A DNA stretch of 6,264 nt from JALTID01 sp027004335 [NCBI: bacterium]. Its GTDB lineage: Bacteria > JALSQH01. Location of the stretch: positions 1-6,264 of the forward strand of contig JALTID010000069.1 in assembly GCA_027004335.1 (NCBI GenBank), given 5' to 3'. Position numbers and translations under genes: made by a program. Below are positions 2,023-6,264 of the stretch, piece after piece. How positions within the stretch are numbered: position 1 is the stretch's first letter; each line of letters begins with the position of its first letter. Below the pieces are notes generated by a model. It had not been told where the DNA came from. It worked only from the letters and a program-made list of their open reading frames with translations, and did not search any database.

Positions 2023-3246
2023 ATGAAAAAATTGAAAATAATCTCAATTTTAACCCTCCTTGCAGGAATGATCCTTATAATTTCCTGTCAGGGGCAGCAG
2101 AACCCGGTTATTTTCAGGGGTTCTGTGACCGACTTCCTTCACCCTGATGCTCCAATCGTATTGGGACTGTGGCCAGCATCTGCCACTCCAGCGACAGGCA
2201 AGTTTCCCCTCTTATACAAGCAACTTGATGGCGCAGGTGAATTCAATTGGGCGATCTGGGAAAATCTGGATGGTAAATTTGCCATGGCTGCATTTGAAGA
2301 TTTCAACAACAACCTTCTCCCTGATAAAGATGAAAGATTGAGTTATGCTGACATTACTCCATTGGAGATATCTTCCTCCAACCATAAATTTGAAAACCTT
2401 GTAATATCCATAAGCACAAGGGCTCCAAGATGGTCAGATGTATCAATAAACCTGTTAGATAAATTTTTCAAGGAGTTAAACGAAAAAGACCCTCAAATTG
2501 TTAATCTTTTTCATCCAATAAGATACTATGACATTTTTTATTATGACTATGATGACATCATTAAAAATATAAAAAACTACTTTTTCCCTCCTACCTCTGA
2601 AACATATTTATCTCACTCCTATAAACTTATAGGAACCAATGCATCTGGAAATGTTGGTGAAGCAACTATAGAATGGATAACTCAGCTACCCAAAACCTAT
2701 ATACCTGACAAGGCCAATACAAATACCACAATTGTGATGTACATGGAAGAAAACAGGCCATATATCACCGCAATTATCCCTAACTGGGAAAATAGAGGAA
2801 TAAAATTCAATGCAGGTGCAACAGGTGTTGATTCAAATACCCTCCTTGCTGTGGACTGGGTGGATGAATCAAATATCCTTCCCAATCCAACATTTGATAT
2901 TGAACTGAGTGTATATTCAACCCCGTCATCCTGTGTAACAGATCTCTATAGCAAACCTATTACACCTCATACATGGTCAAAACCCTTTACTTTTTACAAT
3001 AACGATGGGACACTCTTATATAAAACCGAAGGGATATCTCCTCCCTTCTATTTCTATGATAAAACTGCAGGAAACAAGCCGTTAAAATTCAAAACAGCAG
3101 ATGGGAGCCTGCAAAATTTTCATTTTAACCCGTACTGTCTCTACAGAGTAAAGGTATGGATCCACAGTGATGATGCAAAATCCGATGCGATGTACAGAGA
3201 TAAAGGACCATTCGGGATCCTGTATCTCACGGGGACAAAAAGGTAG
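2023..3246 (+). CDS. Hypothetical lipoprotein with an EF-hand-like loop
   Basis: A 407-aa protein I cannot place in a known family. Residues 1-21 are a lipoprotein signal peptide: basic MKKLK, a hydrophobic core, and the lipobox IISC with the lipidated cysteine at Cys22. Gln follows the cysteine, with no Asp inner-membrane retention signal, so an outer-membrane or cell-surface location is plausible. Residues 93-104 (DFNNNLLPDKDE) have D, N, N, D and E at positions 1, 3, 5, 9 and 12 of an EF-hand-like loop and follow an AMAAFE strand, as in many secreted Ca-binding beta domains. Residues 168-178 are unusually rich in Tyr and Asp. The C-terminal half alternates aromatic and polar residues, suggesting beta structure. 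Cys304 and Cys372 could form a disulfide. The ATG follows AGGAGG. Probably transcribed alone; the signal peptide and lipobox are secure, the function unknown. Confidence 0.85.
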   Translation: MKKLKIISILTLLAGMILIISCQGQQNPVIFRGSVTDFLHPDAPIVLGLWPASATPATGKFPLLYKQLDGAGEFNWAIWENLDGKFAMAAFEDFNNNLLPDKDERLSYADITPLEISSSNHKFENLVISISTRAPRWSDVSINLLDKFFKELNEKDPQIVNLFHPIRYYDIFYYDYDDIIKNIKNYFFPPTSETYLSHSYKLIGTNASGNVGEATIEWITQLPKTYIPDKANTNTTIVMYMEENRPYITAIIPNWENRGIKFNAGATGVDSNTLLAVDWVDESNILPNPTFDIELSVYSTPSSCVTDLYSKPITPHTWSKPFTFYNNDGTLLYKTEGISPPFYFYDKTAGNKPLKFKTADGSLQNFHFNPYCLYRVKVWIHSDDAKSDAMYRDKGPFGILYLTGTKR

Positions 3247-3290: not shown

Positions 3291-3365
3291 GGGCGATTAA
3301 CTCAGCGGGAGAGTGCCACCTTCACACGGTGGAAGTCGCAGGTTCGAGTCCTGCATCACACACCA
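3291..3365 (+). tRNA. tRNA-Val, anticodon CAC
   Basis: A 75-nt cloverleaf including an encoded CCA. D arm: ACTC/GAGT around AGCGGGA. Anticodon arm: CCACC/GGTGG with loop TTCACAC (3321-3327), anticodon CAC at 3323-3325, reading the valine codon GTG. Variable loop AAGTC. T arm: GCAGG/CCTGC with TTCGAGT. T8, A9 and discriminator A73 are in place. The acceptor stem is imperfect: GGGCGAT pairs with ATCACAC only at five of seven positions, with G2-A71 and C4-A69 apposed. The 5' strand matches the usual valine form, whose partner would be ATCGCCC, so the 3' strand appears to carry two substitutions. The gene may be functional, degenerate, or affected by sequence error. No terminator is visible; the 3' end is 3 bp from the convergent ferredoxin stop. 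Confidence 0.85.
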
Positions 3366-3368
3366 TTT

Positions 3369-3701
3369 TTATCCCCATCTAATTTTGGAAACAAAACTGA
3401 TAACTCTTGTTGGACATTTAACTCCACAGATCTGACAATCAGGATCACATGCCATAGGATTGGCAACAACAGGAAATCCATTTTTTATCTCAAATACCTG
3501 ATTGGGACACAACTTAACACACACCATGCATTTAATACAGTTATCGTAATTTATTACCGGGTAGAAGACCCTCACAGGTTCTGAATTTTCTTTTCCCTCA
3601 GCTGGAGAGGTTTCCCTCTGGTAGGTTTCCTTAATCTCCTTTTTCATCTCCCTGTAATTTTCCTTCGCCCTGCCCACCAGATTTTTCACTTTTCTCAACA
3701 T
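3369..3701 (-). CDS. 2[4Fe-4S] ferredoxin-like protein with basic helical N-terminus
   Basis: A 110-aa small electron carrier or cluster-handling protein, last gene of the Fe-S operon. The C-terminal half has two cluster motifs: Cys55, 58, 61, 65 (CxxCxxCxxxCP) and Cys85, 89, 92, 96 (CxxxCxxCxxxCP), the second with an extra residue in its first spacer. Residues 1-30 are a Lys/Glu-rich probable amphipathic helix, followed by a polar linker to about 44. That extension is absent from classical ferredoxins and may dock onto a partner. Start choice is uncertain. The ATG at 3701 has GGAGG eight bases upstream and is preferred. ATGs at 3707 (two bases from the same site) and 3725 (no close site) are poorer. 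An ATG at 3647 would remove the helix and nearly all of the overlap. From 3701 the gene overlaps the DUF59 gene by 71 nt in another frame. Confidence 0.88.
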   Translation of the reverse strand: MLRKVKNLVGRAKENYREMKKEIKETYQRETSPAEGKENSEPVRVFYPVINYDNCIKCMVCVKLCPNQVFEIKNGFPVVANPMACDPDCQICGVKCPTRVISFVSKIRWG

Positions 3702-4032
3702 CTTCATTGCCTCCGTCCTTAACATATTTTTTTCTTCGCTCCATCTCGATCTCTTCTATAAGCTGGTTAATCTGCTCAGCATACACATAATCAGTTACTT
3801 CCATATCAATCTCTCTTATAGTCTCATCCTGGGCCACAGCATAGTAAACTTCCAGTGCCAGCTTATGCCCTATGGGACAGGTGGGAACTGTTGGTTTAAA
3901 TTTAAAACTAACACTCATGTTTTCATCATCAACATCAAGATCATAGACCAGCCCCAGCGTGAGAATATCCATATTAACCTCAGGATCTATGACCCTGGAC
4001 CATCTATATATTAACTCATGCCCCAGACTCAT
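3631..4032 (-). CDS. DUF59 (MIP18/SufT/PaaD-like) Fe-S assembly protein
   Basis: A 133-aa protein. Residues about 5-85 form a DUF59 domain: VIDPEVNMDILTLGLVYDLD (14-33) is the family opening, followed by the PTVPTCP segment with the single cysteine, Cys52, at the conserved position. Family members include SufT, PaaD and eukaryotic Cia2, which take part in Fe-S protein maturation; Mrp ATPases often carry this domain fused at their N-terminus. Here it is separate but directly follows two Mrp/MinD-type ATPases, which supports a shared role. Residues 86-133 are a highly charged Glu/Lys/Gly tail beyond the usual length of about 100 aa; much of the tail is encoded in DNA that also encodes the ferredoxin N-terminus. 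Start: the ATG at 4032, with AGAGG six bases upstream, overlaps the preceding ATPase gene by 17 nt. A TTG at 4038 is less likely. Confidence 0.88.
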   Translation of the reverse strand: MSLGHELIYRWSRVIDPEVNMDILTLGLVYDLDVDDENMSVSFKFKPTVPTCPIGHKLALEVYYAVAQDETIREIDMEVTDYVYAEQINQLIEEIEMERRKKYVKDGGNEDVEKSEKSGGQGEGKLQGDEKGD

Positions 4033-4903
4033 CAACAACCTCTCTGAGGAGAGAAAAAGCCTTCTCCCAGATCTCTTTTATTATCTCTGACAATTCACAA
4101 TCACAATATTCGGGAACAGATTTTCTGTCTACCACCGATTCAACTGCTCTTTCATCAAAGGGAATTTTCCCCAGTAATAGAATTTCATTTTCTCTGGCAA
4201 AATTCTCTATTTTCTCTGTCATCTCAGGATTAATATCATATTTGTTTATTACGACAGTTGGTTTAATCTTAAACTGTCTTATCACCTCTACAACCCTCTC
4301 CAGATCATGAATCCCTGATAGTGTTGGTTCAGTTACGACAACCGCTAAATTCGTACCGGTAATGGCGGAAGTTACAGGGCATCCGGTACCAGGTGGTCCA
4401 TCTATTATCACAAGATCCTTATTCTTTGTACCACATGTTATCTTGGCAAACTGCCTTACAAGAGAAACAAGTTGCCCGGAATTCTCTTCACCTGGAAAGA
4501 GACGAGCATGTATAAGAGGACCATACCTGCTTTCAGATAGATACAGTTCCCCCGCCTGAGTTGGAACCATCTCAATAGCATCAACTGGACACACTATCTT
4601 ACAAACTCCACATCCTTCACATTTTATCGGATTGATCTGATTTATATCTGTAATGGCATCAAATCTACATTCATCTACACAGATACCACATAGAGTGCAT
4701 TCTTCCTCAATAACCTTTGCCTTTTTCCTGCCCGTATAGGGCTTCACCTGCTTTATCTCTGGCTGAAGGATCAAATGCATATCAGAAGCATCAACATCAC
4801 AATCAGCAATAACTTTGTTTTCAGATAGATAGGCAAAAGATGAAGCAAGGGTGGTTTTACCAGTTCCACCTTTTCCACTTACAACAACCAGTTCCTTAAG
4901 CAT
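4016..4903 (-). CDS. MinD/Mrp-superfamily ATPase with inserted 2[4Fe-4S] domain (second copy)
   Basis: A 295-aa cytoplasmic SIMIBI-class P-loop ATPase of the ferredoxin-containing MinD type (COG1149-like). The deviant Walker A is GKGGTGKT (10-17) with the signature Lys11. The A' motif is IADCDVD (32-38) and the switch II segment is DGPPGTG (168-174). Between them sits a ferredoxin-type insert: Cys69, 72, 75, 79 and Cys95, 98, 101, 105, with the last followed by Pro, so two 4Fe-4S clusters are expected. The TEPT...GIHDLE segment (191-202) is typical of the group. An additional CDC pair (Cys267, Cys269) near the C-terminus is absent from the sister ATPase. Likely a nucleotide-gated cluster scaffold or transfer factor; the target is unknown. 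The ATG has GGAG six bases upstream, placed in the end of the previous gene, with only 3 nt between the two genes. Confidence 0.92.
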   Translation of the reverse strand: MLKELVVVSGKGGTGKTTLASSFAYLSENKVIADCDVDASDMHLILQPEIKQVKPYTGRKKAKVIEEECTLCGICVDECRFDAITDINQINPIKCEGCGVCKIVCPVDAIEMVPTQAGELYLSESRYGPLIHARLFPGEENSGQLVSLVRQFAKITCGTKNKDLVIIDGPPGTGCPVTSAITGTNLAVVVTEPTLSGIHDLERVVEVIRQFKIKPTVVINKYDINPEMTEKIENFARENEILLLGKIPFDERAVESVVDRKSVPEYCDCELSEIIKEIWEKAFSLLREVVDESGA

Positions 4904-4906
4904 CTT

Positions 4907-5767
4907 TTACTCCATCCCTTTATTAACAAATTCTTCTATTGATTCAAATAATTGAACAAATTTCTCCCTATATTGAGGCAAAGCCTCAACCACGGGAACA
5001 CCTTTTGAGTAGGCCTCAGCGATCTTCCTATCAAAGGGGATCTCCAGAAGAATTGGTATATTTTCATCCTCAGAGTATTTCCACAATTCTCTATCACCCA
5101 GGTCTGATCTATTTACTACAATCCCCATGGGTAAATTCATCCTTCTCAAAGTATCAACAGCAATCTTTAAATCATGCAGCCCAAAAGGAGTGGGCTCTGT
5201 AGCAAGTATTACAAAGTCTGAATCAATAACTGCTTCTACCATGGAATCTGAATTCCCGGGGGGAGAGTCAATTATTGTAATTCCTTCACCGGGGATTCTC
5301 TTCTTAAGCTGTGCAATTACGGGAGTAGGCATTGGTTCACCCAGATTTAACTTCGCATGAACAAGATGAATATCACTTTTTGCAGGCCCCTCCTCTAATT
5401 TAGCAGTTTCTCTTAAAACCATGGTGATCGCATCCTTGTGAGGCTTACATACTATCTGACAAGCATAACAACCATGGCATAATTCATCAAAGATCATCAA
5501 TTTTTTCCTCGCCACCAAAATAGCACTGTATTCACACGCATCAGCACACATCCCGCAGTAATCGCAACGGGTGAAATCTACCCTGGGTACCATGATCCCG
5601 AGGGGTTCAGTATTATTAAATTCAGGTTTTAAAAAAATATGGGCATTGGGTTCTTCCACATCACAATCAAAATAGTAAATGGGCTTTTTTTCTATGGAAA
5701 GGGCAAGATTCACAGCAACAGTGGTTTTCCCGGTACCCCCTTTTCCGCTGGCAACAGCTATTCTCAC
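4907..5767 (-). CDS. MinD/Mrp-superfamily ATPase with inserted 2[4Fe-4S] domain (first copy)
   Basis: A 286-aa homologue of the next ATPase in the operon, clearly diverged, so the two probably form a heteromeric pair rather than being a recent duplication. Walker A GKGGTGKT (8-15, signature Lys9), A' motif YFDCDVEEP (32-40), switch II DSPPGNS (167-173), and TEPTPFGLHDL (190-200). The ferredoxin insert has Cys68, 71, 74, 78 and Cys97, 100, 103, 107. The usual proline after the last cysteine is Lys108, and HCHGC-type spacing is otherwise normal. Both nucleotide- and cluster-binding residues look intact. Translation starts at GTG (5767), with GGAGG six bases upstream; no better ATG fits that site. 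It lies 17 nt after the NifX-like gene. In orange-protein loci of Desulfovibrio, pairs of such ATPases are found with a NifX-family protein, which supports a related assembly here. Confidence 0.92.
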   Translation of the reverse strand: MRIAVASGKGGTGKTTVAVNLALSIEKKPIYYFDCDVEEPNAHIFLKPEFNNTEPLGIMVPRVDFTRCDYCGMCADACEYSAILVARKKLMIFDELCHGCYACQIVCKPHKDAITMVLRETAKLEEGPAKSDIHLVHAKLNLGEPMPTPVIAQLKKRIPGEGITIIDSPPGNSDSMVEAVIDSDFVILATEPTPFGLHDLKIAVDTLRRMNLPMGIVVNRSDLGDRELWKYSEDENIPILLEIPFDRKIAEAYSKGVPVVEALPQYREKFVQLFESIEEFVNKGME

Positions 5768-5784
5768 TCTGTTCCTCCATTCAT

Positions 5785-6162
5785 TCAGTGATGATGATGC
5801 TCATGTCCTTCAGGGGGTTCAGAAGGTTCATGTATCTCTTCAAGCTCACCTCTATTGAAAGCATCCACAGCTTCTTTCACAGTCATGCCTTTTTTAGCTC
5901 TGTAAACTTTTACTTCAAATTCCTTAAGCACATCCCACGCTTTGGGTCCTACATTGATTCCGATAATGACATCTGATCCCTCTTTGATCAAATCCTGTGA
6001 GGCACCTGTACCTGCGCCCGAGGTTTTATTTGCATTCTGATTTACAACGGCCTTAAATTCCATGGTATCTGAATCAACAATTATAAGATATGGAGCTCGT
6101 GCATATCTTTCATCTACAAGGGAATCAATATTTGCCCCAGCAGCTGTGACTCCTATCTTCAT
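5785..6162 (-). CDS. NifX/NifB-like (dinitrogenase Fe-Mo cofactor family) protein with His-rich tail
   Basis: A 125-aa protein of the Nitro_FeMo-Co family, which includes NifX, the C-terminal part of NifB and the orange protein that holds a Mo-Cu-S cluster. The fold signature is visible: MKIGVTAAG at the start, the DERYARAPYLIIVD segment (17-30), the GAGTGASQDLIKEGSDVIIG loop and strand (49-68), and the VGPKAWDVL helix (71-79). It has no cysteine, so it would hold a cluster through other residues or only transiently. The last six residues are HEHHHH and His111 is nearby, giving a probable metal-binding tail. This is natural: the tail grades into an acidic linker and ends at its own TGA. GGAGG lies seven bases before the ATG, and the start overlaps the upstream stop codon by 4 nt (ATGA). 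No nitrogenase genes are visible, so a role in FeMo-co synthesis should not be assumed. Confidence 0.9.
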   Translation of the reverse strand: MKIGVTAAGANIDSLVDERYARAPYLIIVDSDTMEFKAVVNQNANKTSGAGTGASQDLIKEGSDVIIGINVGPKAWDVLKEFEVKVYRAKKGMTVKEAVDAFNRGELEEIHEPSEPPEGHEHHHH

Positions 6163-6264
6163 CTTTTCTCCTCCTTTTTGCTTTTGTAGCTTTTAAATTT
6201 TTTCTTTTCCACATCAAATTCCATAAAATACTCCATCTCTCCGTTTAGAAGTTTCTTAATAATC
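6159..6264 (-). CDS. C-terminal fragment of an unidentified protein
   Basis: An open frame enters from the right edge on the minus strand and ends at a TGA (6161-6159) that overlaps the ATG of the NifX-like gene as ATGA. The 34 visible residues include LLNGEMEYFMEFDVEKKK and end in a Lys/Glu/Ser-rich tail. The other two minus-strand frames have stops within this stretch, and the 4-nt overlap is the classic sign of a coupled upstream gene, so it is probably real. The family cannot be recognised from so short a tail. By position it is an earlier member of the iron-sulfur operon, whose promoter therefore lies outside the window. Confidence 0.6.
   Translation of the reverse strand, partial: IIKKLLNGEMEYFMEFDVEKKKFKSYKSKKEEKR

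Follow-up and report, generated by a model that had tools for sequence, protein, structure and literature searches.

What might two iron–sulfur (Fe-S) ATPases, a NifX-family protein, a DUF59 protein and a ferredoxin do together in one compact run of bacterial genes? The question is raised by a 6,264-nucleotide (nt) stretch of the bacterium JALTID01 sp027004335 (the window; positions 1 to 6,264 of contig JALTID010000069.1, assembly GCA_027004335.1), on whose minus strand the open reading frame (ORF) list places five consecutive ORFs from 6162 to 3369. A Pfam scan of the five products returned, in order, PF02579 (the NifX-family protein, NIFX2), two P-loop ATPases of the CbiA/ParA type that carry Fer4 inserts (ATPases 1 and 2), PF01883 (DUF59) and Fer4; ORF list and scan agree with a first-pass annotation that had named these five tightly packed genes and counted 24 cluster-type cysteines in three of the proteins (eight in each ATPase, eight in the ferredoxin). 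By analogy with the orange-protein (ORP) complex, we suggest that the locus is a variant of an ORP-like metal–sulfur module of anaerobes in which DUF59 takes the place of a Mrp carrier, a reading that we consider about evenly poised between right and wrong.

The closest known system, compared through its published description and not through Desulfovibrio vulgaris sequence, is the ORP complex of that species (Orp3, Orp4, Orp5, Orp8 and Orp9/MrpORP). In that species, Orp3 and Orp4 have two [4Fe-4S] motifs each, Orp8 is an orange-protein homologue, Orp5 is a small Fe-S protein and Orp9 is the carrier MrpORP, a fusion of Mrp to NifX whose Mrp domain can transfer a cluster to aconitase and to Orp proteins (PMC6345978). 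Like this complex, the window encodes two P-loop ATPases carrying two [4Fe-4S] motifs each, together with a NifX/ORP-family member and one small Fe-S protein. It differs in having DUF59 directly 3' of ATPase 2, and none of the ORFs on the 12.7-kb contig was recognized as a MrpORP gene (translations, Pfam and NCBIfam scans). Further differences are that Orp5 is a homologue of a [2Fe-2S] protein, whereas the window ferredoxin has eight cysteines in two four-cysteine motifs; that the run has two NifX-family genes and a major facilitator superfamily (MFS) gene; and that the ORP complex is encoded by two divergent sigma54-dependent operons, the window genes by one co-directional run.

We surveyed how widely this arrangement recurs by searching ATPase 2 against 386 genomes (its own and others of the same domain; threshold E 1e-25), 128 of which, its own included, gave a match. 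The main locus set comprised 120 loci around the best ATPase 2 matches, drawn from 117 of the remaining 127 pair-bearing genomes (ten were left out); ATPase 1 lay near ATPase 2 in 99 of these loci and a NifX-family ORF in 98. A second set took 57 of 80 loci from named archaea and bacteria (more of them archaea, by title), leaving out L060-L082 (short, mostly ferredoxin-type matches); 56 of the 57 have ATPase 2 (L058 does not), with ATPase 1 nearby in 42 and a NifX-family ORF in 43. The core of ATPase pair plus NifX is ordinary, and the first-pass assignment of the pair and its NifX-family protein to the orange-protein type is borne out. A third set covered 54 genomes from the phylum of one genome (G014), with loci examined together with about 1.5 kb of flank. 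From the phylum of the window genome itself one other genome was compared, which gave just a ferredoxin-type match to ATPase 2.

The first-pass annotation had also likened the ATPases and DUF59 to the eukaryotic Nbp35/Cfd1 ATPases and their DUF59 partner Cia2, and the ATPase half of that comparison is not supported as stated. Mrp/Nbp35 proteins are marked by a conserved CXXC, the ligand of a bridging [4Fe-4S] cluster (PMC6345978); the two window ATPases were found to have no CXXC except within their ferredoxin inserts. The ATPases are 35% identical to each other and share the Walker A motif GKGGTGKT, in which the T is not clearly the hydrophobic residue of the Mrp/Nbp35/Cfd1 form GKGGhGK[ST]. 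Both pass the Pfam cut-off for PF10609 (49.2 and 59.2 bits; cut-off 27.1), versus 317-341 bits for ten Mrp-type proteins. Within its own genome (an 80%-complete assembly, with no Mrp profile run), the ATPase 2 query matched ATPases 1 and 2 alone. The resemblance to the cytosolic Fe-S assembly (CIA) pathway lies in the logic of an ATPase pair plus DUF59. NifX proteins are not known from the CIA pathway.

The window DUF59 passes PF01883 (34.8 bits; Pfam cut-off 23.5), and its structural model (mean predicted local distance difference test, pLDDT, 83.4; below 50 at residues 110-127 and 132-135) fits CIAO2B by VIA-align (Z 11.9 over 101 residues) at 17-18% identity. The same tool aligned it to the bacterial structures 2cu6 (Z 9.7 over 80 residues, 30% identity) and 1uwd (26% over 85); Foldseek ranked 2cu6 first and CIAO2B third, and a sequence profile gave TM0487 60.3 bits versus 31 for galla-2 and 27 for FAM96A. 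Matches to the MamM C-terminal domain (VIA-align Z ~7) were dismissed as fold noise. Judged by sequence, the window DUF59 appears nearer to DUF59s of bacteria than to proteins of the Cia2 type, though VIA-align favours CIAO2B. The likeness to Cia2 is fair as regards fold and perhaps role, and appears not to extend to family membership. One peculiarity of the gene stands apart: it contains an A AAA AAA heptamer (minus-strand A7, 3733-3727) that is read in frame and whose last codon is number 104. Frameshifting by -1 there would shorten DUF59 to 106 residues, close to the length of its unfused relatives in our alignment A1 (96-114), and the remaining 31-residue tail, which has low model confidence, overlaps the ferredoxin N-terminus; the heptamer may reflect sequencing error, slippage or chance.

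Central to our reading is that DUF59 recurs beside the pair. A DUF59 hidden Markov model (HMM; trained on 15 DUF59 proteins, that of the window among them; threshold E < 1e-5) had matches in 10 of the 120 loci, and in seven of these, from five families, the gene lies immediately 3' of ATPase 2 and is co-directional with it (L157, L178, L188, L197, L206, L229 and L259; families f2, f258, f106 (two), f96 (two) and f118), overlapping the ATPase 2 3' end by 4-68 nt (longest ORF). Adjacency was not scored in the other three: in L161 the gene stands two genes further along, in L169 it is 2 kb away and on the other strand, and in L257 it is of another type and 3.2 kb away. The chance expectation is 0.08 adjacent cases in 120, under an assumed, unmeasured, density of 1.5 DUF59 genes per 2,300. 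Mapped as a label on an ATPase 2 tree (9 of 121 rows), DUF59 requires seven changes on the best tree, at least three of them forced by starred branches, with 13 of 500 shuffles as low; repeated gain or loss across the tree is likely, on a quick tree in which 54 of the 118 inner branches are weak.

The position that DUF59 occupies here is elsewhere often taken by a Mrp-type ATPase. Across the 120 loci, the gene directly 3' of ATPase 2 was Mrp-like in 18, NifX in 14, DUF59 in 7 and weakly ATPase-1-like in 3 (perhaps further Mrp), with other genes in 57 and none found in 21. Mrp-like ORFs, identified by a strict motif pattern (which missed a third ATPase beside ATPase 2 in L257), occur in 40 of the loci, in 39 on the ATPase strand, and reach at least 390 residues in 15 of the 40. 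Among ten Mrp-type proteins scanned against Pfam, the nine chosen long ones (at least 390 residues) carry a C-terminal PF02579 and the short one does not; four of five scanned against NCBIfam pass the MrpORP cut-off, three of these from the position 3' of ATPase 2. DUF59 also occurs joined to a NifX-like domain: four genomes of family f14 (G014, G449, G441 and G448; loci L276, L317, L318 and L319) encode 205-214-residue proteins with PF01883 followed by a PF02579-like part, and all four also carry the ATPase pair. By analogy, these fusions appear to parallel the Mrp–NifX fusion of MrpORP. DUF59 is not private to this genome, because it adjoins the pair in seven other loci of five families and because these fusions exist; the prospect raised by the first-pass annotation, that DUF59 and ferredoxin might be adjacent only here, was thus dispelled for DUF59 and, as described below, largely realized for the ferredoxin. 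That this DUF59 subfamily is a dedicated cluster carrier of an ORP-like class, replacing Mrp both as a free protein 3' of the pair and fused to a NifX-like domain in MrpORP-like fashion, is a possibility that we advance tentatively.

Several observations weigh against our reading of the locus as an ORP-like module with DUF59 in place of Mrp. None of the 120 loci combines a DUF59 gene that lies within 2 kb on the ATPase strand (8 loci) with a Mrp gene on that strand (39 loci), an exclusion that is borderline (Fisher p = 0.052), and a tree-aware version of the test found three supported independent pairs and had no power; moreover, 73 of the 120 loci have neither DUF59 nor Mrp. The position 3' of ATPase 2 holds plain Mrp more often than MrpORP, since only 5 of its 18 Mrp-like proteins reach 390 residues. 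One locus (L257) has its third ATPase beside ATPase 2 plus the distant DUF59, and in the G014 phylum, where 22 of the 54 genomes have ATPase 2 and DUF59 adjoins it in one (G471), that genome has ATPase 2, DUF59 and then a Mrp with its own N-terminal DUF59 in a row (L320:1-1824), an arrangement that speaks against strict replacement, yet for a shared pathway. The NifX-like part of the fusions passes the PF02579 cut-off of 26.3 in one case of four (G441, 36.3; the others 24.8, 19.5 and 25.5), and the fusion gene lies near the pair only in G014, with the two on separate contigs in G449, G441 and G448. No DUF59 was found by the same HMM in the 56 loci of the second set; 15 of 49 genomes from that set have a DUF59 elsewhere, at 22 places, and the 20 of these that were examined lie on contigs whose lengths differ from those of the pair contigs. 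The window DUF59 has one cysteine, fewer than most described carriers, a shortage also noted for SufT (PMC4982691). Finally, the window assembly is 80% complete, so a Mrp gene could be missing, and five members of the DUF59 subfamily lie outside pair loci (G399, G269, G127, G221 and G025), two of them in genomes without an ATPase-pair match (G399 and G269), the other three in genomes that do have the pair.

Because of these five, the subfamily is not exclusive to the module, and they give weight to a different explanation, in which DUF59 would act in the SUF system as a SufT-like maturation factor for every client and would share a transcript with Fe-S-rich proteins only by chance, without a role specific to the ATPase/NifX module. 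Free-standing DUF59 proteins are known as SufT and often co-localize with sufBC (PMC4982691). In the window genome DUF59 is the sole PF01883 match (80% complete assembly), and two SufBD-family matches, a possible source of clusters, lie on another contig. SufT-type DUF59s (TIGR02945; TM0487, PDB 1uwd) share with the window protein the PF01883 domain and the conserved cysteine, but the window protein scores far below the cut-off of that SUF-associated equivalog family (45.8 versus 143.4 bits; one fusion protein, 56.4), has an FxP[AST]xxxCP signature and a C-terminal helix, and is tied to the ATPase/NifX pair on a contig separate from the SufBD genes. A subfamily profile (alignment A1, nine DUF59s from pair loci and the window), run over the 386 genomes, gave 15 matches of at least 98.6 bits and a next match of 75.6, a drop to be read with the nine pair-linked rows that seed the profile; nine of the 15 are those seeds and a tenth (G291) is likewise directly 3' of ATPase 2, the position whose recurrence in five families also argues against a merely incidental neighbour. 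On balance we judge the SufT-like explanation unlikely, if by no means far-fetched. In the G014 phylum all five subfamily genomes have the pair versus 22 of 54 overall, an association to which we give no weight because four of the five belong to one family.

The NifX-family proteins bear on what the module would handle. NIFX2 matches PF02579 (57.3 bits; cut-off 26.3), and lacks cysteine; among proteins of known structure it is related to 1rdu (E 5.7e-19) and to 2wfb, which bears the name ORP (E 6.8e-17). Its His-rich tail GHEHHHH is the natural C-terminal end of the protein and lies within the window (5785-5832). The tail was rejected as a family trait: across the 120 loci, a single NifX-family neighbour out of 114 has at least four His in the last 20 residues. 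A second NifX-family gene stands upstream, and its closest relative adjoins a small ferredoxin and an ATPase pair (L213; 66 bits). Tandem NifX-family genes, an upstream MFS gene, the tail and the homology of Orp8 to Mo-Cu sulfide cluster proteins (PMC6345978) would together suit a scheme in which a heterometal cofactor (for example, Mo-Cu sulfide) is built on the NifX proteins for an unseen enzyme, with the MFS protein and the His tail handling metal or precursor. Yet the MFS query had no match among ORFs of the other 177 loci, and the transporter was rejected as a module part; no target enzyme was recognized among the scanned contig proteins (not all ORFs were scanned); and metal specificity is not readable from sequence. 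We regard the heterometal scheme as improbable.

The ferredoxin is a weaker associate. Its start is probably 3701 (110 residues), favoured because a GGAGG lies 8 nt upstream, and about 50 N-terminal residues have no counterpart in three aligned relatives. At E 1e-12, relatives occur in 3 of 365 other genomes and share the second-motif spacing C-x3-C-x2-C; in one of these settings (G127) an ArsR-type gene lies between the ferredoxin gene and a NifX-family gene, and one 117-residue ORF between it and a DGC-domain gene. A raw filter found a small ferredoxin in 9 of the 120 loci, seven of them credible by eye (L157, L158, L159, L165, L184, L213 and L231) and two spurious (L176 and L197), and DUF59 and ferredoxin together are credible only in L157. 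The ferredoxin is an occasional rather than conserved part, and its association is weak and nearly lineage-specific. Separately, three loci of the G014 phylum (L321, L322 and L339) have 104-129-residue ORFs with a weak ATPase 2 match between NifX and the ATPases, which may be small ferredoxins.

Features of the window and of the adjoining contig, with coordinates on the contig.
Feature	Coordinates	Strand	Remarks
Ferredoxin-like protein	3369..3725	-	8 Cys: CX2CX2CX3C then CX3CX2CX3C; Fer4
DUF59 protein (PF01883)	3631..4038	-	FxP[AST]xxxCP subfamily; one Cys
ATPase 2, MinD-type P-loop ATPase	4016..4903	-	Two inserted 4-Cys ferredoxin motifs
ATPase 1, MinD-type P-loop ATPase	4907..5767	-	Two inserted 4-Cys ferredoxin motifs
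NifX/ORP-family protein NIFX2 (PF02579)	5785..6162	-	Cys-free; C-terminal GHEHHHH
Second NifX-family gene (PF02579, 38.8 bits)	6159..6264 (contig 6563-6159)	-	3' end in window
MFS transporter gene	contig 7738-6560	-	Upstream of second NifX-family gene
tRNA-Val (CAC)	3291-3365	+	Convergent with run; 3 nt from run's last stop codon

The run itself is longer than the five-gene operon first described: its genes were correctly recognized and its extent was not, as it begins beyond the window, on a contig of 12,677 nt, in the same-strand order MFS, second NifX-family, NIFX2, ATPase 1, ATPase 2, DUF59 and ferredoxin. Seventeen nt separate NIFX2 from ATPase 1 and 3 nt separate the two ATPases; ATPase 2 and DUF59 overlap by 23 nt (17 nt if DUF59 starts at ATG 4032), and DUF59 and ferredoxin by 95 nt (first ATG), 71 nt (ATG 3701) or 17 nt (ATG 3647). 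The limit of 17 nt on gaps and overlaps given earlier accordingly holds for one choice of start codons, with overlaps of up to 95 nt otherwise. The second NifX-family gene overlaps NIFX2 by 4 nt and is split by a 10-N gap at 6265-6274, just past the window edge, which makes its reading frame across the gap uncertain. Farther upstream, a terminator-like hairpin (8172-8154) separates a groES-like gene (named by eye) from the run; promoter-like sites numbered 16 versus a shuffled mean of 15.2, that is, no excess.

Three further ORF types were noted. An 87-residue cysteine-containing ORF (contig 7722-7985, same strand) lies just upstream of the MFS gene and possibly belongs to the run. At window 2023-3246, the N-terminus of a 407-residue ORF looks lipoprotein-like by eye, and neither Pfam nor NCBIfam gave this ORF a match at E 0.01. 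Gly/Arg-rich small proteins that start like MPRGDGTGP occur on the ATPase strand in 67 of 121 loci, the window contig included, at a median of ~1.9 kb before the ATPase 2 start; none was seen by eye in the window's run.

How, then, might the module work, if it is an ORP-like variant with DUF59 in place of the Mrp carrier? Extrapolating from the ORP complex, the two Fe-S MinD-type ATPases would be its ATP-driven core, and the NifX-family proteins, by their ORP homology, would serve as holders or recipients of a metal-sulfide cofactor bound non-covalently (NIFX2 being Cys-free). The SUF system of the genome would make Fe-S clusters, which DUF59 would most likely load, without an ATPase of its own, onto the ATPases or their NifX partners. 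The ferredoxin is probably an electron supply, or a lineage-specific client. Complex formation among the products, the transfer of clusters and its direction, and any metal besides iron are in this scheme presumed from the relatives of the proteins. The published text also allows a different function: the ORP complex is termed putatively involved in cell division (PMC6345978), and the MinD-related P-loop fold would fit a positional or cell-division regulator in which the pair would play the part of MinD, with the remaining proteins as sensors of redox or metal state. Partners of the DUF59, Mrp and NifX types, however, point to clusters as cargo, not to positioning, and we hold this regulatory role to be very improbable.

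If DUF59 does stand in for a Mrp carrier, the case touches two gaps described in the literature, where the function of the DUF59 domain is called unknown (PMC4982691) and the actors of ORP-protein maturation are called unknown before the MrpORP study (PMC6345978). We found no description of a link between DUF59 and MrpORP, orange protein or a MinD–ferredoxin operon in the open-access literature (most subscription papers lay outside the search). The presence of DUF59 in a position that elsewhere is often taken by Mrp suggests that the same machinery may be loaded more simply, and its recurrence there, together with the parallel fusions, offers a small, defined set of partners with which DUF59 could be tested as a carrier.

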